Positions 42,126 through 64,000 of a stretch of DNA of 64,000 nt are shown one piece after another. The position numbers were made by a program, and so were the translations under genes. Every line of letters starts with the position of its first letter. The stretch's first letter is position 1. The DNA comes from Natrialba sp. SSL1 (GTDB taxonomy: Archaea; Halobacteriota; Halobacteria; Halobacteriales; Natrialbaceae): positions 62,001-126,000 of the forward strand of contig NZ_MASN01000040.1 of NCBI RefSeq assembly GCF_001861355.1, given 5' to 3'. The notes beneath the pieces were generated by a model. The model was given only the letters and a program-made list of their open reading frames with translations, was not told the DNA's origin and ran no database searches.

Positions 42126-43376
42126 TTATCGCGGTGTTTCGCTCCCCCACTTATCGAGTGCGGTCGCGAGTTCGGCGTGATCCTGCGCGTACTCCTCGAG
42201 TGGGACGCCTTCGAGACTCGCGTCGGTAGCCTGCCGAAGCGCTTTCGCGCCGGCGTGGGTGCCGTCGGGGTGGCCGTGGATGCCACCGCCGGCCTGAATG
42301 CAGATATCGGTACCGAGCGCGTCGATGAGTTGGTCGACGACGCCGGGGTGGAGGCCACCGGAGGCGACGGGGAGGACGGGGTTCAGCCCGTGACAGTCGC
42401 CGTGGAGCCAGTCGTTGATCCCAGGCGTGTCCTCGTTTGCGAGCTTGCCGAGTCCGGCGGTGCCGGTGTGAATGTGGTCGACGCCGCAGAGCCGGGAAAG
42501 CTGTGCGATGACACGCATGGAGACACCGTGGTGGTCCATGCGGTCGAAGGCAGCGTGCATGGCCCGGTGGGCGTGGATCGCGAGTCCGTGTTCCTCACAC
42601 CGGTCGCGGACACTCTGGACGGCCGACCAGCCGCAGGTGATGATGTCGACCATGACGAAGCCGCCGCCGTGTTCGGCGACGAGGTCGACGCGCTCTACCA
42701 TCTCGTTCGTCTCCGCCGTGACGTTCACGAGGTAGTCCTTGCGCTCGCCGACGTCCTCCTCGACGCGGTCGCGAGCGGCGAGACTCTCCGCGAGGCGGTC
42801 CTCGAACGGGTTGAAGTCCTGGTCGGTAAGATTCTCGTCGTCTTTCAATAGATCGACGCCGCCGCGCCAGGCCTCCTCGCCGACGCGGACGTGGGCGTCC
42901 GTCGAGAGGCCGACCTTGGGTTTCGGAACCGTCGCCAGAATCGGGCGGTCGCCGGCGTCGAGTTTCTCGCGTGCGACGCTCGTGCCGAACTGCGGGCCGG
43001 GGAAGCCCGACGTAATCGACTCGGGCCACTCGCAGTCCTCGAGTCGGATTGCGTCGACGGCTTTCATACCCATGATATTCCCCGCGATACAGGAGAGGAT
43101 CTGCGGCATGCTGCCCGCCTCGAACAGTTCCGCGGGGTAGGCGACGGTGATCTCGTCGCCGTCGATTCCGCAGGCGACCGCGCCGAGATGAGTTAGTTCG
43201 TCCTCGTCGACGTGCAGGGCGGCCCACGTGCCGTTCGAGGACTCCGAGGCGACGCGGCTCGCGGCGGCTTCCATCGACATGCCTTCGGCTGGGTCGATGG
43301 TGAAGGTACAGACGAGGTCAGTCGAATCGGGGTCGTACTCGCGGTCGAGGAAATCGTCGTACTCGATGCCAGTCAT
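42126..43376 (-). CDS. rbcL: Form III (archaeal) RuBisCO large subunit
   Basis: The 416-aa protein has the catalytic RuBisCO set: Lys in VPKPKVGLS (about 152-154), the carbamylated Lys178 in GGVDLLKDDENL with its Asp and Glu metal ligands, HRAMHAAF, loop 6 GTAGLGKLANEDTPG and VASGGLHPG. It lacks a small subunit and is shorter than plant-type enzymes. In archaea form III works in AMP salvage: ribose-1,5-bisphosphate to ribulose-1,5-bisphosphate, then CO2 fixation to 3-phosphoglycerate. The start at MTGIEYDDFL (43376) is preferred over 43391. Confidence 0.94.
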   Translation of the reverse strand: MTGIEYDDFLDREYDPDSTDLVCTFTIDPAEGMSMEAAASRVASESSNGTWAALHVDEDELTHLGAVACGIDGDEITVAYPAELFEAGSMPQILSCIAGNIMGMKAVDAIRLEDCEWPESITSGFPGPQFGTSVAREKLDAGDRPILATVPKPKVGLSTDAHVRVGEEAWRGGVDLLKDDENLTDQDFNPFEDRLAESLAARDRVEEDVGERKDYLVNVTAETNEMVERVDLVAEHGGGFVMVDIITCGWSAVQSVRDRCEEHGLAIHAHRAMHAAFDRMDHHGVSMRVIAQLSRLCGVDHIHTGTAGLGKLANEDTPGINDWLHGDCHGLNPVLPVASGGLHPGVVDQLIDALGTDICIQAGGGIHGHPDGTHAGAKALRQATDASLEGVPLEEYAQDHAELATALDKWGSETPR

Positions 43377-43612
43377 GGTAGTCCTTGACATTCATCGCGG
43401 TGACTAATAGTGTTTGCGCGGATTTCGCTGACTGAAGTCAGCAACCGGAGACGTATCCATTACTCCCGTCCCACTCCCAAAGACAGGATGTGTTAGACAG
43501 AAGTGACCATTCGTCCACCCACTCATCGCTATTCGGACGAGAACGGCCAATACACTAATACGGTACGTCTCATCTCGGACGTGACAGGAAAAATTGCAAA
43601 AATTAATTAGCT

Positions 43613-51069: not shown

Positions 51070-53346
51070 ATGACAGCACATCAGTCAGACCGATCACACA
51101 CGGTATCCAGGCGGCTCCTGATGCAGGCGACTGCACTCGCGTCTGTTTCAGGGTTTGCGACGACGGCACTCGCACAGGACGGTGAAAACAACCAGATAGA
51201 ACTGCTGGGCCGAACCAGTGGCTGGATCGGAAGCTCTCCCGATGATATCGCAGACGAGCGCAATCCGACGCTCGAACTCGTCGAGGGCGAGGAGTACACC
51301 CTCATCTGGGAGAACGAAGACGGCGCCGGACACAACTTCGTCATCGAAGACGAAGAAGGTGAAGAGAACTTCGTCGAAACGGACGTCATCTCGGGGACGG
51401 GCGAGACCCAGGAAGTCGAGTTCACCGCCGAGGAAGGGATGGCCGAGTACTACTGTGCACCCCATCCCCAGTCCATGCGCGGGGATATCGAACTCGTCGA
51501 CGAGGCTAACGGCGAGGAAGAAGAGGTCGAAGACGAACCGGACGCCATCATCGGCGACGGCCCAACCGTCGGCCTCGAAACCGTCGCCGACGGCCTGAAC
51601 GCACCCATCGACCTCCAGTTTGCAGAGGAGGAGACCGATCGCCGATTCATCGTCGACCAGACCGGTCAGATTCACATCCACGGCGAGGACGGACTCGAGG
51701 ACGAGCCGTTCCTCGACATCGAAGATCGGATGGTCGAACTCGACGGCGACTTCGACGAGCGCGGCCTGCTCGGACTCGCCTTCCACCCGGAGTTCGAGGA
51801 GAACGGACGATTCTATGTCCGGTACAGCGCGCCGGGTGAGGAGCCAGAGTACGGCGCACCCGGTGCGGAAGTGCCGGAAGTCGTCGACCACCTCGATACA
51901 CTCGCACAGTTCGAGACGGCCGACGACGACAACACGGAAGCAGATCCCGATTCCGAGGAAATCCTCCTCGAGATCCCACAGCCGCAGTTCAACCACAACG
52001 CGGGTCCGATCGCGTTCGGGCCTGATGACTGTCTCTACGTTTCGACAGGTGACGGTGGTGGTGCCGGTGACAGCGACGAGGGACACGTCGACGACTGGTA
52101 TCCCGAAATCGAAGGCGGCAACGGACAGGACACCGAGCACAACCTACTCGGCGGCATTCTCCGACTCGATGTCGACGACGACGGTGACGAGGAGCGAAAC
52201 TACGGCATTCCCGACGACAACCCGCTCGTCGACTCCGAGGAGAACCTGCCGGAGTACTGGGCGTGGGGACTGCGTAACCCGTGGGGTATGTCCTTCGAGA
52301 ACGGCGAACTGCTCGCCGCAGACGTCGGGCAGGCGCTGTTCGAGATCATCAACCACGTCGAGGAGGGCGGCAACTACGGCTGGAACGTCTGGGAAGGGAC
52401 CCACTGTTTCGACCCAGACACGCCCGAAGAGCCGCCGGAGGATTGTCCAGACAGTGTCTCGGACGATCTCCCCGAGCCACGCGCCGGCGAACCGCTACTC
52501 GGCCCCGTAATCGAGTACCCACAGGAAGTCGATATGGGTCGGTACGGCGACGAGGCCAACGGGGACGAGGAGAACGGCGACGAAGAAGACGCCGAACGCG
52601 GGGCCGAAACCGACAACGGCGAGCGCGACCGCATCGGCACCGCGATCATCGGCGGCACGATGTACGAGGCCGGCGAGATCGGGGAGCTCGAGAACGCCTA
52701 CGTCTTCGGTGACTGGAGCTGGGACGGCGAAGGTCCCGGCCGACTCTTCATCGCCCACCCGCCAGAAGGGTGGCCAAACGGTGAAGAGGATCCCGAGGAC
52801 GACGAGGACGAGGACGATGCAGCCCTCGACGACGAGAACGACAACGGCGTCGAGGACGATGACGACGAGGTCGAGAACGGAGCGGACGACGATGCAGAGG
52901 ACGAAAACGGCGAGGACTTCGAGCCGGTCGATCCCGAAGGTGAAAACGGAGCGGACGACGAGAACGGGACCGACGAAGACGGACTCGAACAGTACCATCC
53001 GCCGGACGAGGTCGACCTCTGGGACATCGAAGAGCTCACCGTCGAAGGCGACGGCGAAGTCGCTGGCGATGGCATGATGGAGCAGCTCGTCTACGCCTTC
53101 GGCCGCGACGCCGACGGCGAGGTCTACGTCCTGACGTCCGACACGCCGACGATCGAGGGCGAAGGCTTCGTCAGCCGTATTGTGCCGGCTGACGATGAGG
53201 ATGTCGACGAAGAGGAAGACGGAGTCGTGGACGAGGACGAAGACGACCTCGACGAAGAGGACGATGCAATGGACGACGATGAAGATGACGTCGAGGTCGA
53301 CGACGATATCGAAGACGACGAAAACGACGAAAACGAGGACAACTGA
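51070..53346 (+). CDS. Cupredoxin-fused PQQ-dependent sugar dehydrogenase (Tat-exported)
   Basis: The 758-aa protein has a Tat signal (VSRRLLMQATALASV), then a type 1 copper domain with His88, Cys129, His132 and Met136 (GHNF...YYCAPHPQSM). From about residue 170 follows a six-bladed glucose/sorbosone dehydrogenase domain: GLLGLAFHPEFEENGRFYV, GLRNPWGMSFENGELLAADV and GGNYGWNVWEGTHCF. Acidic inserts lie at about 575-640 and in the tail (700-758). The copper domain could take electrons from PQQ within the same chain. It converges with the PQQ dehydrogenase at 53580. Confidence 0.9.
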   Translation: MTAHQSDRSHTVSRRLLMQATALASVSGFATTALAQDGENNQIELLGRTSGWIGSSPDDIADERNPTLELVEGEEYTLIWENEDGAGHNFVIEDEEGEENFVETDVISGTGETQEVEFTAEEGMAEYYCAPHPQSMRGDIELVDEANGEEEEVEDEPDAIIGDGPTVGLETVADGLNAPIDLQFAEEETDRRFIVDQTGQIHIHGEDGLEDEPFLDIEDRMVELDGDFDERGLLGLAFHPEFEENGRFYVRYSAPGEEPEYGAPGAEVPEVVDHLDTLAQFETADDDNTEADPDSEEILLEIPQPQFNHNAGPIAFGPDDCLYVSTGDGGGAGDSDEGHVDDWYPEIEGGNGQDTEHNLLGGILRLDVDDDGDEERNYGIPDDNPLVDSEENLPEYWAWGLRNPWGMSFENGELLAADVGQALFEIINHVEEGGNYGWNVWEGTHCFDPDTPEEPPEDCPDSVSDDLPEPRAGEPLLGPVIEYPQEVDMGRYGDEANGDEENGDEEDAERGAETDNGERDRIGTAIIGGTMYEAGEIGELENAYVFGDWSWDGEGPGRLFIAHPPEGWPNGEEDPEDDEDEDDAALDDENDNGVEDDDDEVENGADDDAEDENGEDFEPVDPEGENGADDENGTDEDGLEQYHPPDEVDLWDIEELTVEGDGEVAGDGMMEQLVYAFGRDADGEVYVLTSDTPTIEGEGFVSRIVPADDEDVDEEEDGVVDEDEDDLDEEDDAMDDDEDDVEVDDDIEDDENDENEDN

Positions 53347-53579: not shown

Positions 53580-55496
53580 TCAGCGCTGCAGTGAGAGGAC
53601 GGCGAACCGGTTTCCTGGCTCGGTCCAGTCCTCACGTTCGCCGCCTGCCGGTGCGGCGACGTACTGTTTGTCTTCGCCGGGATCGTACCAGCTGATCGGC
53701 GCACCGGAGACGGCGGCCCCGACGTTCCACTCGGCCAGTTCTTCGCCGGTCTCCGTGTCGAACGCGGTGAACAGGTCGCGACCATCGCCGGCGAAGGTGA
53801 TCCCGGTCGCCGTGGTCATCGAACCGCCCCACGGCGGGGTCTGCTGCCAGCTGTACCACTGTTGCCACTTCACCTCGCCGGTGAACGGGTCGATACCGGC
53901 GAGAACGCCGCCGTTTTCGTTCCAGAACGGTACCTCTTCTTCTTCGATCTCTTCGGCTGCTTCCTCCTCTTCTTCTTCCTCTTCCTCGTCCTCCTCGTCC
54001 TCCTCGTCATCGTCGACTGTCTCGACATCCTCTTCCTCGTCTTCGAGTTCCTCTTCGACCTCGACGATCTCTTCGCGCGGCGTTTCGATATCCGGTTCGT
54101 CGATCTCCTCTTCCTCGCCCGGGACCCGGTCTCGTCTGATCGTGTCCATGCCGATGTAGACCTCACCCGGCTCGTACTCGACCTCGAACCAGGAGAACTT
54201 CATCGGGTGGTTCACGCCCTTGACGACCATCGTCCGCGAAACTGGGTCGAAGGAACTGGTCTGTGGGTTCGTACCGCCGCGGAGCTCCGGCATAATCCAC
54301 GGCGCATCCTCCAGATCCTCGTACGGCGGCAGCGACCACATGTTGTGGTGCTGGACGTACTCCTCGCTTCGCTGGTGGAGCTGTCCAGTCTCCATGTTGA
54401 CCGTGTAGACCCAGCCGGTTTTGCCGGGCCACGCCGCAAACCGCGTCGGCTCGCCGTTGTGCTCCTCTTCGAAGACCAGCGCCGGACTCGGTGAGTCGTA
54501 GTCCCACCAGTCGTGTGGCGCGTCCTGGTAGTGCCACTCGTACTCGCCCGTCTGGATGTCGACCGCGACTTTTCCTGCCGTGTAGGGGTTGAATCCCGGC
54601 CGAACGGTTCCATACCAGGGCCCTGGGTTTGCAGACGGGATGATGATCGTCCCGCTCTCGGGATCGAGGTTCGACGCCGCCCAGGCCGTCCCGCCGCCGT
54701 GCATCCAGGAGTCGCCGACCCACTCGTGTTCGGGCGTCATATTCACCCGCCACTCCGGCGAGCCGTCCTCGACGTTGATCCCGTCGAAGAATCCACTAAC
54801 ACCGAACTCACCGCCGAAGCTCCCCTTCATCAGAACGCCGTCACAGATCATCGGCGGGAACGACGATGTGGTCCCGCGCGAGCGCTCCCAGCGAAGTTCC
54901 TCGTGCATGCCGACATCGGTGTCGGCGACCTCTCCGCGATACGCCGCCGCACCGTTGTAGTACCACTCCGGCTCACCGGTATAGCGATCCATCGCGAGCA
55001 CGCCGAGATCCAACGTACTCTTGTAGATCATGTCACCGAGCACCGCCGGCCCACGCTCTGCCGGCGGCGTCTCCGCCGATGTTCCGTCTGCGTTCTCGTA
55101 GATGTTCCGCCACAGAATTTCTCCGGTTCGGCCATTGATCGCGTACAGCCTGTCCGGTCCGATCGTCTGATAGATAATCGGCGGATCGCCCTGCACTACC
55201 AGCGGCGACCCCTGGAAGTCGTTCTCCGGCGCACCCAACTCGAGTACGTACTCGAACTCGAGTTGGTCGACGTTCTCCGGCGTGATCTGGTCGGCCGTCG
55301 TGTGGCGGTGGCCTTCGTAGTTGTTACCGAAGACGAGCCAGTTCTCGGGGTTCTGCCCGGATTCGCGGATGTCGGATTCGGTGATATCGACCTCCGGAAT
55401 CTGGTCTGTATCGTACTGTTCGAGCTGCGATTCGCCGGGCATCTCGTCCCACGGTGCGTCTTCCGGGAGTTCTTCGAGGTGTGATTCGAACGTCAT
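53580..55496 (-). CDS. PQQ-dependent (methanol/alcohol-type) dehydrogenase without own signal peptide
   Basis: The 638-aa protein is an eight-bladed quinoprotein. Segments GGEFGVSGFFDGINVEDG, ANPGPWYGTVRPG and APHDWWDYDSPSP correspond to the Ca2+/PQQ site and catalytic Asp region of methanol dehydrogenase-type enzymes. The vicinal Cys-Cys pair is absent. A 65-residue Glu/Asp-only insert interrupts the last blades (about 457-521). There is no signal peptide, although these enzymes work outside the membrane. The gene overlaps the stop codon of a Tat-signal protein by four bases, suggesting export as a complex. Confidence 0.9.
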   Translation of the reverse strand: MTFESHLEELPEDAPWDEMPGESQLEQYDTDQIPEVDITESDIRESGQNPENWLVFGNNYEGHRHTTADQITPENVDQLEFEYVLELGAPENDFQGSPLVVQGDPPIIYQTIGPDRLYAINGRTGEILWRNIYENADGTSAETPPAERGPAVLGDMIYKSTLDLGVLAMDRYTGEPEWYYNGAAAYRGEVADTDVGMHEELRWERSRGTTSSFPPMICDGVLMKGSFGGEFGVSGFFDGINVEDGSPEWRVNMTPEHEWVGDSWMHGGGTAWAASNLDPESGTIIIPSANPGPWYGTVRPGFNPYTAGKVAVDIQTGEYEWHYQDAPHDWWDYDSPSPALVFEEEHNGEPTRFAAWPGKTGWVYTVNMETGQLHQRSEEYVQHHNMWSLPPYEDLEDAPWIMPELRGGTNPQTSSFDPVSRTMVVKGVNHPMKFSWFEVEYEPGEVYIGMDTIRRDRVPGEEEEIDEPDIETPREEIVEVEEELEDEEEDVETVDDDEEDEEDEEEEEEEEEAAEEIEEEEVPFWNENGGVLAGIDPFTGEVKWQQWYSWQQTPPWGGSMTTATGITFAGDGRDLFTAFDTETGEELAEWNVGAAVSGAPISWYDPGEDKQYVAAPAGGEREDWTEPGNRFAVLSLQR

Positions 55497-56431
55497 TGGC
55501 TGGTCACCCCAGCTGGGGCGCGCTTGTCGTCGGTGATTCGGATCACGTCGTCGAGCAGGAACTCCTGGCCGATGATCATGATCGCGCTGCTGCCGCTGAT
55601 CAGAGTCGAGAGGTGTTCGTCCGCGATGGAGCCCTCCGCGAGGTCGCGCGCGGCGGCACCCATGAGGTAGTAGCCGCCGAGCATGGACTTAATGTCCCAG
55701 AGCCCGCGGTCGATCATCTCTGAGGTGACGAGCACTTCGTTCGTCCAGAGGTAGTGATCGAGGCCGTCGATCCACAGCAGGGATCCTTCCGCAGCTCGCT
55801 GATGCAGGGGCGCAACGTAGTCGTAGACGACGCCGTCGTCGAGCGCCTCTGCCGGCGGGTATGCCTCTGTCGGCATCCACCACGAGAGCTGTTCGCGCGC
55901 GTTGACGATGTTTGTCACGAGCGCTGCTTGCTCCTGTTCGGCGAAACCAACCTCTGCCAGCGTGGCCGGCAGCGCGTCGAGGTGGAGCAACTGCCGTGTC
56001 GTCGTCTCGATGTGTTCGGGCGTGAACGCCGGCAGCGTCTGCTCTGCGCTCGCAAAGAAGCCGACATCCGCCAGGTGCGCGTTGATCTCCCACGCTGGCC
56101 CGGTCAGCGCCTGATACGCCTCGGAGCCGGCCTCGGGAACGCCCATCGTCTCGATTTCGGGCAACTGCTCGAAGGACGCCGTCAACGCACCCAATTGGTT
56201 GCTCAACAGTGTGGCGTCGAGCGAGCCGGTAAGCCCGTCACGAATCCCCTGTCCCATTTCGGCCAGCCCGCTTGCTGTGCCGCTCGATACCTCCGCTCTG
56301 AGGTCGTGCAACGTCGCTCCCGCGATCGTCCCGCCGGCGATGACACCGAGTGCCTTCAGGAACTCACGGCGTTCATCGTCGCTGACCTCTCCGTAACTAT
56401 ACCGCTCTCTTGGGTCGGTACCGTATGCCAT
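55493..56431 (-). CDS. Tat-signal partner protein of the PQQ dehydrogenase
   Basis: The 312-aa protein has a twin-arginine signal (DERREFLKALGVIAGGTIAG, Arg21-Arg22) that appears to stay as an anchor. The rest is rich in helices with a few aromatic residues (LSWWMPTEAYPPAEALDDGV, GSLLWIDGLDHYLWTNEVL). No cofactor motif such as CxxCH is present. Its stop overlaps the dehydrogenase start (ATGA), so the two are co-translated. It is most simply a membrane-anchoring and Tat-escort subunit. The family is not recognised. Confidence 0.78.
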   Translation of the reverse strand: MAYGTDPRERYSYGEVSDDERREFLKALGVIAGGTIAGATLHDLRAEVSSGTASGLAEMGQGIRDGLTGSLDATLLSNQLGALTASFEQLPEIETMGVPEAGSEAYQALTGPAWEINAHLADVGFFASAEQTLPAFTPEHIETTTRQLLHLDALPATLAEVGFAEQEQAALVTNIVNAREQLSWWMPTEAYPPAEALDDGVVYDYVAPLHQRAAEGSLLWIDGLDHYLWTNEVLVTSEMIDRGLWDIKSMLGGYYLMGAAARDLAEGSIADEHLSTLISGSSAIMIIGQEFLLDDVIRITDDKRAPAGVTSQ

Positions 56432-56833
56432 GGCACAGGAGAACGCGGGACAGTCCAGCAATTAGCTGTTTCCACAGTTTCGACTTCTGCGAGAGGTTTC
56501 TCGACGTGTACTGTGATATGTTACCAAGTTTTACCCTCGCCATCCCTCATTTCGGTGAATAATAGTATGTTGGCCGAGCCGACAACCTGCATCGGAACAC
56601 AGCCGAAACAGGCATCACTTGTACAACGATCACCATCCGAGTCACCATCTATAATATCATGTTAAGATGACACCAAGTAGTGCACATAGCGCGAGACTAT
56701 CACGCCGCGACGAATCACGATATTGCCCTCGCTGTGAGAGTCTGGTTTGGTAGTGATTTCGATTATATAAACAAAGATCCAAATCACGTTGGAGTAAGTA
56801 TTGACTTGGAAGCGCTACAATTCATAATTACCG
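56432..56833. other. AT-rich divergent regulatory region
   Basis: The gap between the quinoprotein unit and the HTH gene is AT-rich, with GATTATATAAAC at about 56760-56771 as a likely promoter. A 60-codon GTG frame at 56680-56862 overlaps the next gene in another frame and is not supported. Confidence 0.5.
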
Positions 56834-57250: not shown

Positions 57251-57694
57251 TTATCGGCTGTCACATTCGGGTAGCTGAACGAGAGAGAGCCAGAACTGTT
57301 CGAGCGTCTGGATCGTATCGATAAACTCAACCGGGTCGACTGGTTTCGTCAGATAGGCATTGGCGTGGAGGTCGTACGATTTGACCAGATCATCGTGGCT
57401 ATCTGAGCTCGTGAGAACGATAACTGGGATATGCCTCAAATTGGAGTCCGCTTTGAGCTCTTCAAGGACTTCCTCACCGTCCTTCCGTGGCAGGTTGAGA
57501 TCAAGCAGGATGAGATCCGGACACGGCGCATCGGCGAACTCGCCGCGCTGGTAACAGAAGTCGAGTGCATCAACGCCGTCTTCCGTCACGTGGAGTGTGT
57601 TAGCGATCTTCCCGTCCTTGAACGCTTCTCGGGTGAGTCGAACATCACCAGGGTTGTCCTCAACGAGGAGAATATCTGCTTCATTCTTGCTCAT
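57251..57694 (-). CDS. Single-domain response regulator
   Basis: The 147-aa receiver has acid pocket Glu12/Asp13 (LLVEDNPGD), phospho-acceptor Asp65 (LILLDLNLPRKDG), Thr95 and Lys117 (YLTKPVD). It has no output domain and is of the Rcp1/CheY-like type. The start overlaps the stop of the histidine kinase by four bases, so it is very likely the cognate partner. Confidence 0.93.
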   Translation of the reverse strand: MSKNEADILLVEDNPGDVRLTREAFKDGKIANTLHVTEDGVDALDFCYQRGEFADAPCPDLILLDLNLPRKDGEEVLEELKADSNLRHIPVIVLTSSDSHDDLVKSYDLHANAYLTKPVDPVEFIDTIQTLEQFWLSLVQLPECDSR

Positions 57695-59703
57695 TGCCTC
57701 CCACTCGAAGGGAGGGTAAATGAGAATGTCGACCCCTCGCCGGGTTCGGACTCGACCCAGATGTCCCCGCCGTGGCGCTCGATAATCCGCTCACAGAGCG
57801 CAAGTCCGATTCCCGTACCATCGCCATCGCTGCGACTTTGGCCTCGCTGAAACACCTCAAAGATTTGCTCTTGCTCTTCGGGATTGATCCCGATTCCCTC
57901 GTCTTCGATGGAGACGATCCAATCCGTGCCGTTCCGCTCTGCGGTTACGTGAACCGTCGGCTGGTCGTCGCTGTACTCGATGGCGTTATCCAACAGGTTC
58001 TGGACCACTTGGCGTAACTGGTCGGGGTCGCCCTGAACACGTGGAAGTGAGTCCGCCTCAATCGTCGCGTCGCTCTCCTCGATTGTTACCTGTAGGTTCT
58101 CACGGACATCGTCAAGAATGCGTTCCAAGTCGACCGGCTCTAATGGGTCGCCCTGTGTTTCGACGCGGGAGTACTGGAGCAACCCATCGATCATCGACCG
58201 CATCCGCTCGGCCCCATCCACGGCGAACTCGAGGAACTCCTCTCCCTCCTCGTCGAGGTCATAGCGGCTATCGATGAGTTGGAGGTACGACGAGACCATC
58301 CGCAGCGGCTCTTGCAGGTCGTGTGAGGCAGCATAAGCGAACTTCTCTAACCGTTTGTTCGATTCTTCGAGATCAGCGACCAGTTGTTCTAATCGTTGCT
58401 CCCGTGCTTTGCGCTCGGTGATATCGGCAACTGCGCCGTGCATCCGAACCGGCTCGCCATAAATATCGTATTCGACCTCTCCACGAGATTCGACCCAGGT
58501 GATGTCACCGGTCGTCCTCTCGATTCGGAACTCGGTCCTGAGTTCGCCTGTCTCCTCGATGGCTCGCTCGAGTTCCTCCCATGTTTCCTTCGCATCATCT
58601 TCGTGGATTGGTTCGTAAAAGGCCTTCATCGGGGCACCTTCTGTTGCTGGATCCATTTCGTACAACTCCAAGAGAGACTCGTCTGCAGTAACGACATCCT
58701 TCTGAATATCCCACGTCCAGATCCCGATCGACGCGGCTTCGGTCGCCACATCCAGTTGTGCCTTCCGATCTCGCAACTGGTTCTCCTTTTCTGTGCGCTC
58801 GATCGCCTCCGCGAGGATGTTGGCGACGCTCTGGACGAAGTTGACGTCCTCCTCGGTGAACTCTTGTTGGTCGGTATCGTGCGTCCCCAGAATCCCCCAC
58901 GGTTCGTCGAACGGCCCAATAATGGTGCTGATGCCGCTGTGGACATCGTGACTTGTCAGCAATTCCGGCCCGCTGAACCGTGTCTCCGTCTCGAGATCTT
59001 CGACGATGATCGGGTGATTATTCGCCAGCGTATACGCTGCCTGTGAGTCCGCTTCAACAGACGAGACTGTTGCCTCTCCAGCGATCCCCTCCTTCCATCC
59101 GACACCCTGGCGGAGTAGTAGTTCCTCGTTCTCGGGGTCGAGGTCGAGCACTTTGCAGTAGTCGTTGTCGAGTGCATCCGCGACCTTGCGGGCTGCCTCG
59201 TACATGAGATCGTTGAGGTCGTCGGCCTCGAGTGCGAACTGGCCGAGGTGGGCCACAGCCTCTTGCTGCTTGGCTCGGCGTTTGAGTTGCTGCGTTTGCG
59301 TCTTGGCCCGTCCGTCGTAGATACCGACACCAAGCCCTCCGACGCTACCCAGCGCCGTGAGAATCGGAATTCCGGTCAGTGGTTCGGAAATACCGCCTTC
59401 GGGCTGGAGATGAAACAAGATGAGGAGACCTGCCATTGCCCCGAACCCGGCGAGACACCATCCAGTGATGTCAGTGTGGAACTCGGCACTGATATCGCTC
59501 CGTGAGAGCGAGTACGCGCCGTAGATGAGGAGGAACCCAGGAACGACGATTAACAGCGTTATGAGAAGGATGCTACTGGTCGGCTCACCAATATTGAACA
59601 TGATAACTGCCCGGAAAACGGCAAGTACGACATAGAGCGCCCCAAGAGCGCCAATAATACGTCTCCCGCCGATCGTAGACACGAGGCGGTGCCAGTATGC
59701 CAT
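57691..59703 (-). CDS. Membrane histidine kinase with GAF and PAS domains
   Basis: The 670-aa kinase has four N-terminal membrane helices (to about 125), a short coiled coil, a GAF domain (about 150-300), a PAS/PAC domain (about 310-440), a HisKA domain with His461 (AYAASHDLQEPLRM) and an HATPase domain (N box LRQVVQNLLDNAIEYSDD; G boxes EDEGIGI and GDGTGIGLAL). The sensory input could be redox or light through the GAF domain; the ligand is unknown. It overlaps the response regulator gene by four bases. Confidence 0.93.
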   Translation of the reverse strand: MAYWHRLVSTIGGRRIIGALGALYVVLAVFRAVIMFNIGEPTSSILLITLLIVVPGFLLIYGAYSLSRSDISAEFHTDITGWCLAGFGAMAGLLILFHLQPEGGISEPLTGIPILTALGSVGGLGVGIYDGRAKTQTQQLKRRAKQQEAVAHLGQFALEADDLNDLMYEAARKVADALDNDYCKVLDLDPENEELLLRQGVGWKEGIAGEATVSSVEADSQAAYTLANNHPIIVEDLETETRFSGPELLTSHDVHSGISTIIGPFDEPWGILGTHDTDQQEFTEEDVNFVQSVANILAEAIERTEKENQLRDRKAQLDVATEAASIGIWTWDIQKDVVTADESLLELYEMDPATEGAPMKAFYEPIHEDDAKETWEELERAIEETGELRTEFRIERTTGDITWVESRGEVEYDIYGEPVRMHGAVADITERKAREQRLEQLVADLEESNKRLEKFAYAASHDLQEPLRMVSSYLQLIDSRYDLDEEGEEFLEFAVDGAERMRSMIDGLLQYSRVETQGDPLEPVDLERILDDVRENLQVTIEESDATIEADSLPRVQGDPDQLRQVVQNLLDNAIEYSDDQPTVHVTAERNGTDWIVSIEDEGIGINPEEQEQIFEVFQRGQSRSDGDGTGIGLALCERIIERHGGDIWVESEPGEGSTFSFTLPSSGRQ

Positions 59704-59931
59704 TGGTGCAACTGCGGGTAGAGGCCGTATAGAAGTGTTGGACCGGTTCTACTCCCGCGTCTTCCGAAGTTGCCATCTCCAGCGGACTAGAAAACACCAA
59801 TAAGGAACGATGTTAGGAGTACCCGTCTGTGATTTGACCACGCCCAGACGTACTCATCGCTGCGCGCGGCTGGTCATGTCCCAATCCCAGAACGTGCGCT
59901 TCCTTCTTCGTCACGTCGTTCCTCAGAAGAG

Positions 59932-60006
59932 TGCTCCGTCTGGGATTTGAACCCAGGTCATCGGCTCGAAAGGCCGAAATGATTGGCCGGACTACACCAA
60001 CGGAGC
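59932..60006 (-). tRNA. tRNA-Glu (anticodon UUC)
   Basis: On the minus strand a 75-base cloverleaf is visible. The acceptor stem GCTCCGT pairs with ACGGAGC, the anticodon stem is TCGGC/GCCGA around loop CTTTCGA (anticodon TTC), and the T arm is CTGGG-TTCAAAT-CCCAG. The discriminator base is A. No intron is seen and CCA is not encoded. Confidence 0.95.
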
Positions 60007-60220: not shown

Positions 60221-61807
60221 TCACTCCGCCCTCTGATCGAGCGTCCCGTACTCGAGTTCGAGTACTCCCTCGATCGTCGGTGTCACGGCCGTTGCGTCGA
60301 TAGCATCGACCGAACTGAGATCGACATTGTGCGCGGCCGGGCCACCGAGGGCGTAGCAGCCGTAGGCCGATTCGTCAACGCGGCCGTGAGAGCCGCTGAC
60401 TTTCGTGGGGTCGAGCGAGACCATCCCGTCCTCGCCGAAGAACAGCTCGCAGGGGTCGAAGCCGGGCTTGTCGTGGATGTCCATGTCGGTCGCGTACGGC
60501 GGCGCGTTGTCGTGGTCCGTCCACCAGTAGTACTGGAACCAGGCGTCCGGCTCAGCGACGAGGATGAAATCGCCCGCGTTCGGGTGGTCGATCCCCCACT
60601 CGGCCTTCTCGGCGTCGTCGATGACGGTGGCGACGCCGTCGAGATCGGCGAGCAACTCGCGGGCCGTCTCGAGTGCATCCGCGCTCGCGGTCGCATCTGT
60701 TTCCGCGTCCGTGTCTGTACCCGCATTCGCGTCCGAGCCCGCGCCCGAGCCAGCGTCTGCGTCCACATAGACGTGTGCAAGCTGATGATCCACCATCGCG
60801 AACGCGGCGGAGTTCGGAATGTCGGCGTCACCCTCCGCATCGGTCTCGAGGAGCCCCGCCTCGTGAAGCGCCCGATTCGGGAACACGGGCTGCTCCACGT
60901 CGTGGAACCCGTACTCGCTGATGAGGTTGATAGCGGTCTCATCCCAGCGGTCGGTCCCCGAGAGGAAGTCGAGAAAGCCCCCGAGCATCTCGTCGACCGT
61001 CTCGAGTTCCGCGTCGAACGCGTCGGAACTCGGGCCGTCGCTCTGACCGACGTAGTCCAGATGGGGAACGTACACCCAGAGCAGGTCGGGGTCGAAGCGC
61101 TCGACCGCCTCGCGCGCCGCGGAAAGGATCCATTTGCTTCCCTCCTCGTTCGCGCCTGGCCCCCAGTAGTTGTGCAGCGGGAAGTGTGCGTACGCTTCCT
61201 GGAGGTCATCGTAGAACCCGTCGGGATTCGTCCAGCAGTTCATCTCGATCAGGTTGTTGTCCTCGTCTTCGATGGGCGAGGGCGTCACCGCGACATCGGC
61301 GGTCGTCCCGATCAGGTGCTGGAAAAACAGCACGCCGGTCGTCAGCCCAGCCTCGCTCGCAGTTTCCCAGATCCGGTCGCGATCGGCGCGGTCGCGCTCC
61401 CAGAACTCGGCGGCCCGGCGCTCGCGGTCGAACTCACCGCTCGAGACGTCGCCGTGCTCGCTCGGCCCGGTCCCGGTCGCGAGAGTGGTCTGCGCTGGCA
61501 CCGTCAGTGCGGGAAATGGCGGTCGAAGGTCCGTCACCCGCTCGTCCGGAAAGAACGAGTGCAGCGTCGGGGTCCGCTCGGCGTCGATGTGCTGGGGCTG
61601 GAGCCCGACGACGTCGAGGACGATGAGTCGACCCGTGGAGTCGACCGTTTCGGAGTCGAACTCGAGTGCATCCTGCTCGACGGTCCCGCCGTCGGTTTCG
61701 ATGGGAGTGGATTGGGTACCTGTCTCGCCGTTCGTCTCGGCGTCTGTTTCGTCATCGGTGCGTTCAGTCGTATCAGGAACAGTGTCGTCAGTAGTGTCGT
61801 CAGTCAT
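60221..61807 (-). CDS. EboF-like alkaline phosphodiesterase/nucleotide pyrophosphatase family protein
   Basis: The 528-aa protein has an acidic N-terminal extension of about 55 residues, then an alkaline phosphatase-superfamily core: RLIVLDVVGLQPQHID, a Thr nucleophile region in PALTVPAQTTLATGTGPSEH, FPLHNYWGPGANEEGSKW, LLWVYVPHLDYVG, LISEYGFHDVEQPVFPNRAL and AMVDHQLAHVYVD. These segments are those of the phosphodiesterase of bacterial ebo clusters. An acidic insert lies at about residues 345-380. It overlaps the stop of the upstream inositol-3-phosphate synthase gene by four bases. Confidence 0.84.
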   Translation of the reverse strand: MTDDTTDDTVPDTTERTDDETDAETNGETGTQSTPIETDGGTVEQDALEFDSETVDSTGRLIVLDVVGLQPQHIDAERTPTLHSFFPDERVTDLRPPFPALTVPAQTTLATGTGPSEHGDVSSGEFDRERRAAEFWERDRADRDRIWETASEAGLTTGVLFFQHLIGTTADVAVTPSPIEDEDNNLIEMNCWTNPDGFYDDLQEAYAHFPLHNYWGPGANEEGSKWILSAAREAVERFDPDLLWVYVPHLDYVGQSDGPSSDAFDAELETVDEMLGGFLDFLSGTDRWDETAINLISEYGFHDVEQPVFPNRALHEAGLLETDAEGDADIPNSAAFAMVDHQLAHVYVDADAGSGAGSDANAGTDTDAETDATASADALETARELLADLDGVATVIDDAEKAEWGIDHPNAGDFILVAEPDAWFQYYWWTDHDNAPPYATDMDIHDKPGFDPCELFFGEDGMVSLDPTKVSGSHGRVDESAYGCYALGGPAAHNVDLSSVDAIDATAVTPTIEGVLELEYGTLDQRAE

Positions 61808-63051
61808 GCGTCGGTCTCACCGTGGCGGCTCGCGTAGTCGTACAGCCAGTGCAACTGCTTCGAGAAATCGTGCTCGTCAACCCCGAGCGGGGCCTTGAAG
61901 AACGAGGCGAGCTGGGGCTGGAGACCACCGTCGCCGTACTCGTCGGCGTGTGCGATCAGCCGAACCAGATCGAGCACGAGCGGCGCGGCCAGTGCCGAGT
62001 CCGACCCCTCCCAGGTGAACTGCATCGTCATCTCGGTGTTCAGGAAGCCCTCGAAGTGGATGTAGTCCCAGGCCGTCTTCCAGTCCGCGAGTGACGGCGT
62101 GTAGTCGATTCGCACGCGATTGTGGCCAATGTCTGGGAGGATGGACTCGAGTACGTCGCCCTTGCTCGCGAGTTTGCCGGCTGCGTTTTGCTCGTCCTCG
62201 AGTACGAGGCCGTCCTTGTTGCCGAGGATGTTGTGGCCCTCCCAGGAGAGAACGTTCAGGTTCCGGCCGGCAAACATGGGGGCGAGCGCGGACTTGACGA
62301 GCGTTTCGCCGGTTTTGGCGTCCCGGCCGACGTGGGGGACGTCGCGGTCGGCAGCGAGTTCCTGTACCCCGCCGAGTGCGTTGCCCGTGCTCGGCGTGAA
62401 GTTGACGAACGGATGGCCGGCGTCGATGGCGGCGTAGGCGTAGAGAACGCTTGCGGGCAGATCGCGGTCGTCATCGTCGAGTGCGTCCTCCAGTGCGTCA
62501 CGGGTGTCGTACCGGTCGGCTGTGGGGAGCTCCGGCTCTGTGGAGGCGACGTTGACGACGACGAGTCGGTCGAGGTCGTGTGCGGTCCGGAACGACTCGT
62601 AGTCGTCGCGGATCTGGTCGAGAACGGTCCGCAGCGAGAGCGATTCGTCGAGCTGTTCGCTCTCGTCGGTCACCGCAGCCCCGCAGTTGATCGCCGTCCC
62701 AACTTCGATTCGCTCGTCGACGGCGGCGAGGTCGTCACGGACGCCCGCAAGGGTTTCTTCATCGGGAACACCGTTTCGCTCGCACTGGCGCTCTGCCTGC
62801 TCGACGAGCGAGGTCGGATCGATGTCGTGGCCACCGAAGACGAACTCCTCGACGGGTGGCAACTCGAGTGCTGAGACTGGCTCGCGCTCGGTGACCATGC
62901 CGGTCGTATCTGTGTGGCCGGCGGCGATGGCCCGTGCGCCGACGATGGCCATCGTCGCGACGTTTCCACGCGCGCCGACGAGCCAGACGCCGGTCCGATC
63001 TCCGGTGAGCGAGTGTTTCGAGTCGGCTGCGCGAGGTGAGTCAGCACTCAT
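61804..63051 (-). CDS. Inositol-3-phosphate synthase family protein
   Basis: The 415-aa protein has the NAD-binding start TGVWLVGARGNVATMAIVGA and the family core VGRDAKTGETLVKSALAPMF, then NVLSWEGHNILGNKDG and FEGFLNTEMTMQFTWEG. Such enzymes convert glucose-6-phosphate to inositol-1-phosphate. Context differs from the usual archaeal lipid gene: it is coupled to the EboF-like gene and divergent from the EboB-like gene, so its product may feed an ebo-type pathway. The length is normal. Confidence 0.88.
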   Translation of the reverse strand: MSADSPRAADSKHSLTGDRTGVWLVGARGNVATMAIVGARAIAAGHTDTTGMVTEREPVSALELPPVEEFVFGGHDIDPTSLVEQAERQCERNGVPDEETLAGVRDDLAAVDERIEVGTAINCGAAVTDESEQLDESLSLRTVLDQIRDDYESFRTAHDLDRLVVVNVASTEPELPTADRYDTRDALEDALDDDDRDLPASVLYAYAAIDAGHPFVNFTPSTGNALGGVQELAADRDVPHVGRDAKTGETLVKSALAPMFAGRNLNVLSWEGHNILGNKDGLVLEDEQNAAGKLASKGDVLESILPDIGHNRVRIDYTPSLADWKTAWDYIHFEGFLNTEMTMQFTWEGSDSALAAPLVLDLVRLIAHADEYGDGGLQPQLASFFKAPLGVDEHDFSKQLHWLYDYASRHGETDA

Positions 63052-63350
63052 CGGCCATCACGAGCGCAGTGGGTAGGTTGGTGGAGGCCGTCGGCGCTCG
63101 GGGCGCTCGGCCTCGACTGTCGCGCGATCGCGCCGGGGGTCGTCGACAGCGGCTGCGCGTGTTCACTCATCCGGAAGCCATCGGTCCGGGACGGCTTTTG
63201 TTATGCCCGCCGTAGCACGCGTAACACGGTTTTGGCCGAGACTAACGCGACATTCCCCGCGAGCCAGGCGACCGTCGTTCAGGCACAATATGAGATTAGC
63301 TGCGTGAACGACCGGCATTCCAAAAGCGGGCGATTGCCGTACTCCGGGAC
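63052..63350. other. Divergent promoter region of the ebo-like genes
   Basis: About 300 bases between the minus-strand operon and the plus-strand TatD-like gene. The first half is GC-rich; AATATGAGATTAG around 63288-63300 is the most AT-rich patch and may serve the plus-strand gene. No gene is supported. Confidence 0.45.
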
Positions 63351-64000
63351 ATGCGCATTATCGACCCCCACATGCACATGGTGTCGCGCGCGGCCGACGA
63401 CTACAGGCGGGCGCGACGCGCGGGCATCGAGTGCTGTATCGAGCCGGCCTTCTGGAGCGGGCAGGACAAACAGCACGCGGGCGCGTTCTTCGATTATTTC
63501 GAGCAGATCATCGAACACGAGACCGACCGCGCAGAGCGGACGGCCAACATGGACCACTACGTGACGATCGGCCTCGAGCCCAAGGAGGCGAACTACCGGG
63601 AGATGGCCGAGGAAGTTCTCGAGCGCATTCCGGAGTATCTCGACCGCGATCCGGTCGTCGGCGTCGGCGAAATCGGTTTCGACCAGGTCACCGACGACGA
63701 AGAGTGGGCGTTCCGCGAGCAACTCGAGATCGCCGAGGATCGCGAACTGCCCGTCATCGTCCACACCCCCCACACCGACAAGCCGGCCGGCACCGAGCGC
63801 ATCGTCAAGATCATCGAGGAGATGGGCGTCACTCAGGACCGAATCATCATCGACCACAACACCGAGAACACGATCGATATCGCTGCACAGACCGACTGCT
63901 GGATCGGCTTCACCCTCTACCCCGGCAAGATCGAGGCCGACGCCGCAATCGACCTGTTAGAGGAGTACGGCACCGACAACATGATCTTCAACAGCGCCGC
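63351..64000 (+). CDS. EboB-like TatD-family metal-dependent hydrolase (3' end missing)
   Basis: The frame is open from the ATG at 63351 to the window edge (216 codons). The start MRIIDPHMHMVSRAADDYRR holds the HxH metal site. GIECCIEPAFWSGQDKQHAG, TIGLEPKEANYREMAEEVL, VVGVGEIGFDQV (Glu), VIVHTPHTDKPAGT (His) and IIDHNTENTIDIA (His) follow. This set matches the TatD-type hydrolase EboB of bacterial ebo clusters rather than DNase TatD. It is divergent from the EboF-like/inositol-phosphate operon. Confidence 0.85.
   Translation, partial: MRIIDPHMHMVSRAADDYRRARRAGIECCIEPAFWSGQDKQHAGAFFDYFEQIIEHETDRAERTANMDHYVTIGLEPKEANYREMAEEVLERIPEYLDRDPVVGVGEIGFDQVTDDEEWAFREQLEIAEDRELPVIVHTPHTDKPAGTERIVKIIEEMGVTQDRIIIDHNTENTIDIAAQTDCWIGFTLYPGKIEADAAIDLLEEYGTDNMIFNSA

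Follow-up and report, generated by a model that had tools for sequence, protein, structure and literature searches.

Gene content of the locus

We analyzed a 64,000-nucleotide stretch of the genome of the haloarchaeon Natrialba sp. SSL1 (hereafter the window; contig NZ_MASN01000040.1, C40:62001-126000, in a genome of 61 contigs), at whose right edge lies a group of genes with similarity to the ebo operon. The contig extends beyond the window and the next 13 kb were also read; coordinates beyond 64000 are window equivalents (L003 position + 58000). A first-pass annotation of the window had proposed three genes of an archaeal ebo cluster here, encoding an EboB-like TatD hydrolase, a protein of the inositol-3-phosphate synthase (MIPS) family, and an EboF-like phosphodiesterase. 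All three open reading frames lie at the coordinates it gave, and the motifs it listed are present in the translations (PAFWSGQ, LEPKEAN, EIGFDQV, and VHTPHTDKP in the TatD protein; FPLHNYWGP, YVPHLDY, and SEYGFHDVEQPV in the EboF-like protein). The MIPS and EboF-like genes overlap by 4 nt, and the genes for TatD, TIM barrel 1 (TIM1), and UbiA run divergently from this pair, TIM1 starting three bases past TatD and UbiA following directly after TIM1. A promoter and terminator scan, which did not cover archaeal promoters, gave no signal above chance.

Table 1. Coordinates of the ebo-like genes and of the neighboring features
Feature	Position	Strand or placement	Length and domain match
EboF-like PF01663 protein	60221-61807	minus	528 aa; Pfam PF01663, 158 bits
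Inositol-3-phosphate synthase (MIPS)	61804-63051	minus	415 aa; PF07994/PF01658, 164/113 bits
EboB-like TatD-type metal hydrolase	63351-64151 (cut by the window edge at 64000)	plus	266 aa; PF01026, 72 bits
TIM barrel 1 (TIM1)	64155-64985 (L003 6155-6985)	downstream of TatD	276 aa; PF01261 (the two TIM barrels: 155 and 149 bits)
EboC-like UbiA	64986-65996 (L003 6986-7996)	follows TIM1	PF01040, 61 bits
GSDH/cupredoxin protein	66058-68622 (L003 8058-10622)	minus	
TIM barrel 2 (TIM2)	68964-69836 (L003 10964-11836)		PF01261 (the two TIM barrels: 155 and 149 bits)
Second GSDH/cupredoxin protein	51070-53346	plus	
PQQ-dehydrogenase-type propeller	53580-56461	minus	
Sensor histidine kinase	57251-59703	minus	
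tRNA-Glu	59931-60006	minus	
RuBisCO large-chain family protein	42126-43391	minus	

The TatD, PF01663, and UbiA proteins group with ebo sequences

The TatD and EboF-like proteins were used as tblastn queries against 72,556 plasmids (E<1e-12), and part of the matching records were opened to read the gene neighborhood. Each query matched 51 plasmid records, and every neighborhood opened held an ebo or homologous cluster. These neighborhoods came from Aureibacter, Mycetohabitans, Azospirillum, Ketogulonicigenium, Salipiger, Deinococcus, Gloeothece, Streptomyces, and haloarchaea, that is, from Bacteroidota, Pseudomonadota, Deinococcota, Cyanobacteriota, and Actinomycetota as well as Haloarchaea; in Gloeothece, the plasmid neighborhood consists of TatD and a DHQ-synthase-like gene only. 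Trees of the B, C, and F families, built by a quick method with Shimodaira-Hasegawa-like approximate likelihood ratio test (SH-aLRT) support and with long generic branches, group the haloarchaeal EboB, EboC, and EboF types with ebo sequences, apart from generic TatD, NPP, and DGGGP synthase. The haloarchaeal sequences form their own clades.

The TatD protein shares 37-47% identity (182-250 bits) with ebo-type TatD proteins, compared with at most 43 bits for generic TatDs from the same and other genomes, and it carries the ebo-type motifs EP[AS]FW, NPKE, HTPH, and a DWGxSDP-type motif. Its EboB-like identity is thus borne out by plasmid matches, tree, and motifs alike. The competing identity, a generic TatD DNase, is contradicted by the search ranking, trees, and motifs, and in the model comparison suggested by the first-pass annotation the generic model TIGR00010 gave only 46 bits, far under its cut-off of 206.

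For the PF01663 protein, the plasmid matches, tree, and shared motifs likewise agree with the EboF-like identity first proposed for it, and a generic phosphatase identity is contradicted by the search ranking, trees, and motifs. Beyond an acidic and variable N-terminal region of about 58 residues, it has the motifs VVGL, HLDY, SEYG, DHQxAH, and GSHG in common with canonical EboF. VVGL, an HLDYxxQ-type motif, and SEYG or SEYA occur in all EboF-type proteins compared, archaeal and bacterial, with HLDYxxL instead of HLDYxxQ in a few haloarchaeal sequences; at these positions, a solved NPP (2gsn) and generic paralogues have xDG, DxxGH, and SDHG. The base of the EboF tree is weakly supported, but the signature motifs are confined to EboF-type sequences, and one row labeled generic (L097) is an unlinked EboF from a Desulfobacterota genome. 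The signature positions correspond to zinc ligands of Xanthomonas NPP (D54, H214, D257, and H258). EboF proteins of both archaea and bacteria have V, Q or L, E, and Y at these four positions but retain equivalents of the nucleophile Thr, D210, and H363. With its zinc-ligand positions changed in this way, EboF probably does not work as a typical phosphodiesterase with two zinc ions.

An EboC, which the first-pass annotation had expected further along the contig, was found just past the window edge. The UbiA protein encoded there scores 196 bits against the NCBIfam EboC model NF035940, below the curated cut-off of 250 and the 342 bits of canonical Aureibacter EboC, but above the accepted ebo-cluster UbiAs of Streptomyces (99) and Ketogulonicigenium (80) and above the DGGGP-synthase-like protein of the Natrialba genome itself (57); with an SCO3242-type model, it reaches 172 bits, below the cut-off of 260. 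Of the two Asp motifs in DGGGP synthase, EboC-type proteins retain the first, which reads NDxxDxxxD in the Natrialba UbiA, along with Y-x4-K; they lack the second and have a single Glu there (Gln in one). This loss need not mean lost activity, because an EboC homologue farnesylates the aromatic acceptor 8-HQA in vitro (PMC9235831).

MIPS in the position of EboD

MIPS aligns over its full length with MIPS of A. fulgidus (1u1i, 284 bits), its closest match among solved structures, and keeps the lysines replaced by alanine in the variant structures 3qvw and 3qvx. On its sequence, we assign it to the myo-inositol-1-phosphate synthase fold family, with the catalytic lysines in place. It is the only MIPS found in the Natrialba genome.

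No relative of EboD or DHQ synthase was found in nine haloarchaeal genomes, and three Desulfobacterota genomes gave only matches below the cut-off. Streptomyces plasmid clusters encode MIPS, UbiA, a TIM barrel, EboA, TatD, EboE, and a PF01663 protein, again without EboD. Since EboD is missing from the nine haloarchaeal genomes and the same exchange occurs in Streptomyces clusters that have EboA and EboE, the proposal that MIPS occupies the position of EboD in the haloarchaeal cluster is supported. The first-pass annotation had drawn the same conclusion for an archaeal version of the cluster; the exchange holds up but is not confined to archaea, and the database annotation of Streptomyces already shows it alongside accepted ebo members. 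The MIPS of ebo-type clusters splits from that of other plasmid clusters with an SH-aLRT of 100, in a tree with narrow MIPS sampling. An inositol enzyme is unmentioned in the ebo papers and in a combined text search of the open-access PubMed Central (PMC) literature.

The remaining ebo members gave mixed results. Of the EboE homologue expected nearby, what was found is two shorter TIM barrels downstream. TIM1 scores 28.7 against the EboE model (cut-off 250), and hhalign indicated a distant relation only, which speaks against TIM1 or TIM2 being a true EboE. Full-length EboE gave no match in the nine haloarchaeal genomes or the Desulfobacterota genomes in a search without positive control. TIM1 and TIM2 each group across Archaea and Bacteria, haloarchaea with Desulfobacterota (SH-aLRT 97 and 93). 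The expectation of an EboA was not borne out: the EboA_domain model, which does detect EboA in Aureibacter and Streptomyces proteins, gave no match above cut-off in 12 genomes (a genome search without positive control), and thus none near the cluster or elsewhere in the Natrialba genome. As EboA and EboD were looked for and not found, the cluster is not a canonical eboA-F operon.

Conservation and co-occurrence of the set in haloarchaea

We compared, gene by gene, 13 loci found with the UbiA protein (12 haloarchaeal and one from a Desulfosarcina metagenome-assembled genome [MAG]), a contig search that picks up close relatives only, and 14 MIPS-containing stretches from genomes sampled at the order level. 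The arrangement of the EboF-like and MIPS genes divergent from TatD, TIM1, UbiA, and TIM2 is shared by Natrialba, Natrinema, Halovenus, Halorussus, and further genera. The set is also present, slightly rearranged, in plasmid records of Halobaculum, Haladaptatus, Halocatena, and Natronococcus, four in all: no MIPS is listed at the Haladaptatus locus, and the MIPS and EboF-like genes of Natronococcus lie downstream in the same direction.

Among 99 sampled Halobacteriales genomes, MIPS occurs in 14 and this TatD in 15, all 14 lying within the 15 (Fisher p 4e-16). Counted by genus, which is the safer figure because the sampled genomes are related, both occur in 6 of 42 genera (p 1.9e-7). In several of these genomes, MIPS and TatD lie far apart or on different contigs, so the co-occurrence does not reflect linkage alone. 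UbiA was found in 55 of the 391 genomes of the class (14%), the MIPS/TatD genomes included. Haloferax volcanii may be a further carrier of the cluster: in this species, taken as a control, the EboC model matched at E<1e-30, and a MIPS, HVO_B0213, is listed in the literature (PMC8305020). Gene content, homology, synteny, and co-occurrence were computed directly, as were the MIPS catalytic motifs and the first EboC motif. These data confirm that the grouping of MIPS, TatD, and the EboF-like protein is not due to chance and recurs across haloarchaeal genera.

Neighboring genes

Two GSDH proteins, the only two found in the genome, flank the cluster, and both combine a twin-arginine leader, marking them as Tat-exported, with a cupredoxin domain. 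Of nine genomes in which the cluster is linked, six have a GSDH gene within about 10 kb against 0.29 expected, a comparison among related genomes at a distance chosen post hoc. Other clusters have comparable neighbors: a ScyD/ScyE-family gene lies directly upstream of a Streptomyces cluster (L067), a pyrroloquinoline quinone (PQQ) dehydrogenase lies beside the Salipiger cluster, and three Desulfobacterota loci (L032, L059, and L060) encode secreted squalene-hopene-cyclase-like and YdjY-domain proteins in or near the cluster.

The window also encodes a PQQ-dehydrogenase-type propeller that contains a long insertion rich in Asp and Glu; its gene overlaps by 4 nt an open reading frame of 322 residues that carries a twin-arginine-like leader and matches no Pfam family. 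A sensor histidine kinase (archaeal 4TM, GAF, and PAS) and an adjacent response-regulator-like open reading frame lie beside the cluster and might regulate it, and a tRNA-Glu gene adjoining the EboF-like gene at its 3' end could mark a boundary or an integration site. A RuBisCO large-chain family protein is encoded in the same window.

Proposed role and alternative explanations

Taken together, the haloarchaeal cluster is very probably related to ebo. We further propose, with a probability of about 0.5, that it encodes an ebo-type pathway in which homologues of EboB, of the UbiA-type intramembrane prenyltransferase EboC, and of EboF work together, in which MIPS stands in for the sugar-phosphate cyclase EboD and two short TIM barrels of the xylose-isomerase-like kind for EboE and EboA, and in which an isoprenoid-cyclitol takes part in metabolite traffic. 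An isoprenoid-cyclitol product of EboD and EboC has been argued before (PMC5133447), and the haloarchaeal set fits this idea independently, because the one enzyme that differs, MIPS, also makes a cyclitol. Substrate, product, order of steps, and export role are what we infer from the gene set. MIPS would convert glucose-6-phosphate by ring closure into an inositol phosphate; the cyclitol would be isomerized or trimmed by the TIM barrels and the TatD-type enzyme, and EboC would link it to a prenyl chain within the membrane. A phosphorylated intermediate would be the substrate of EboF, which is probably no conventional two-zinc phosphodiesterase. The isoprenoid-cyclitol in the membrane might then help to move or anchor a metabolite for exported redox enzymes, such as the neighboring GSDH/cupredoxin protein. 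We consider this cyclitol-lipid mechanism nearly as probable as the pathway assignment itself.

Several points weigh against this proposal. The UbiA protein falls under the curated EboC cut-off, and the prenyl donor is uncertain, since EboC-type proteins lack the second Asp motif; moreover, an EboC homologue is known to use in vitro an aromatic acceptor rather than a cyclitol (PMC9235831). MIPS, the sole one found in the genome, may serve other inositol pathways. With EboA and EboD absent and a full EboE not found, the biochemistry may differ from that of canonical ebo. The GSDH link fails in three of nine genomes. Finally, haloarchaea have no outer membrane, and no haloarchaeal metabolite or exported substrate is known.

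The lack of EboA, EboD, and a full EboE and the inconstant GSDH neighbor would also suit an archaeal set of ebo ancestry with an unrelated product and no role in metabolite traffic. We regard this as unlikely, although it is the strongest of the alternatives: three core proteins are conserved together with their catalytic-site signatures, and exported redox or terpene-cyclase-like neighbors recur. Less probable still is a cluster for an inositol-containing archaeal phospholipid, with MIPS feeding archaetidylinositol-phosphate synthesis and the other genes accessory. The nearest solved structure is indeed the Archaeoglobus MIPS, and haloarchaeal polar lipids with a myo-inositol-derived headgroup have been stated (PMC8305020), but the headgroup-transfer family is the CDP-alcohol transferases (PMC9385802), of which the cluster contains none. 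The UbiA protein sides with EboC rather than with the lipid enzyme DGGGP synthase and is present in just 14% of haloarchaeal genomes, and the set occurs in bacteria too.

Matches of the TIM barrels to IolO, IolE, and epimerase models, together with GSDH, PQQ dehydrogenase, and FAH-hydrolase neighbors, could instead indicate an island for sugar or cyclitol catabolism with IolE/IolI/epimerase-like TIM barrels. This is about as improbable as the phospholipid explanation, or slightly more so, given that MIPS is biosynthetic, that the cluster showed no dehydrogenase, kinase, or aldolase for breaking down inositol, that its TatD, PF01663, and UbiA members are of ebo type, and that FAH and GSDH linkage is inconstant. 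That a TatD DNase and a phosphatase, both generic, lie beside a lipid MIPS by chance, as the generic Pfam names alone would allow, is refuted by the co-occurrence data, the conserved synteny, and the ebo-specific similarity.

The haloarchaeal cluster extends ebo-type genes to Archaea. In the open-access PMC papers searched, neither ebo in Archaea nor a MIPS-based ebo is reported, although archaeal ebo may be mentioned in papers behind subscription. The operon was described in 2016, and the presence of MIPS, a well-studied kind of enzyme, makes the question of its chemical product testable. Any biochemical model of ebo must explain the changed zinc ligands of EboF and the missing second Asp motif of EboC.

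Comparison with known systems

The canonical operon eboA-F is found in Bacteroidota, Cyanobacteria, and eustigmatophyte plastids (PMC5133447, PMC6282210). A role in metabolite export has been demonstrated only in Nostoc, where the scytonemin monomer needs ebo to reach the periplasm (PMC6282210), and the general role in moving precursors to the periplasm assumed in the first-pass annotation stands for Nostoc alone. The haloarchaeal set resembles canonical ebo in its EboB, EboC, and EboF homologues with their family motifs, in the adjacent TIM barrels, in a ring-forming sugar-phosphate enzyme, and in the clustering of the genes. It differs in that EboA, EboD, and full-length EboE were not found, in having MIPS and two short TIM barrels, and in its archaeal host.

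A conserved plasmid cluster of Hymenobacter and Roseomonas (L070 and L071), composed of MIPS, Gfo/Idh/MocA, YcaO, a TIM barrel, and a PIG-L deacetylase, shares with the haloarchaeal set MIPS and a related TIM barrel; it lacks TatD, UbiA, and PF01663 members, and its MIPS forms a separate clade. The SCO3242-type cluster of Streptomyces plasmids has in common with the haloarchaeal set MIPS and no EboD, a UbiA of the EboC/SCO3242 kind, TatD, a PF01663 protein, and an extra TIM barrel. SCO3241-SCO3244 of S. coelicolor are presumably this same cluster. Unlike the haloarchaeal set, the Streptomyces cluster has EboA and EboE, its genes all run in one direction, and its extra TIM barrel does not group with TIM1 or TIM2.

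Further counterparts are in Desulfobacterota. One locus (L059) holds all six haloarchaeal families together, a second (L060) holds five, with the PF01663 gene elsewhere in the genome, and the Desulfosarcina MAG (L032) combines five of them with a TIM barrel of the Streptomyces type. As in haloarchaea, no EboA or EboE was found in these clusters. Their gene order is different. A third form of ebo, with MIPS and two short TIM barrels and without EboA, EboD, and EboE, may be common to haloarchaea and Desulfobacterota. If one cyclitol-forming enzyme, EboD, has given way to an unrelated one, MIPS, among the same companion genes, a prenylated cyclitol would be the likely product of all ebo forms; we hold this view more tentatively than the pathway assignment. 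The exchange of the ring-forming enzyme suggests that ebo yields a membrane lipid carrying a ring-shaped sugar alcohol, a product that, if this is true, bacteria, archaea, and algal plastids would share.

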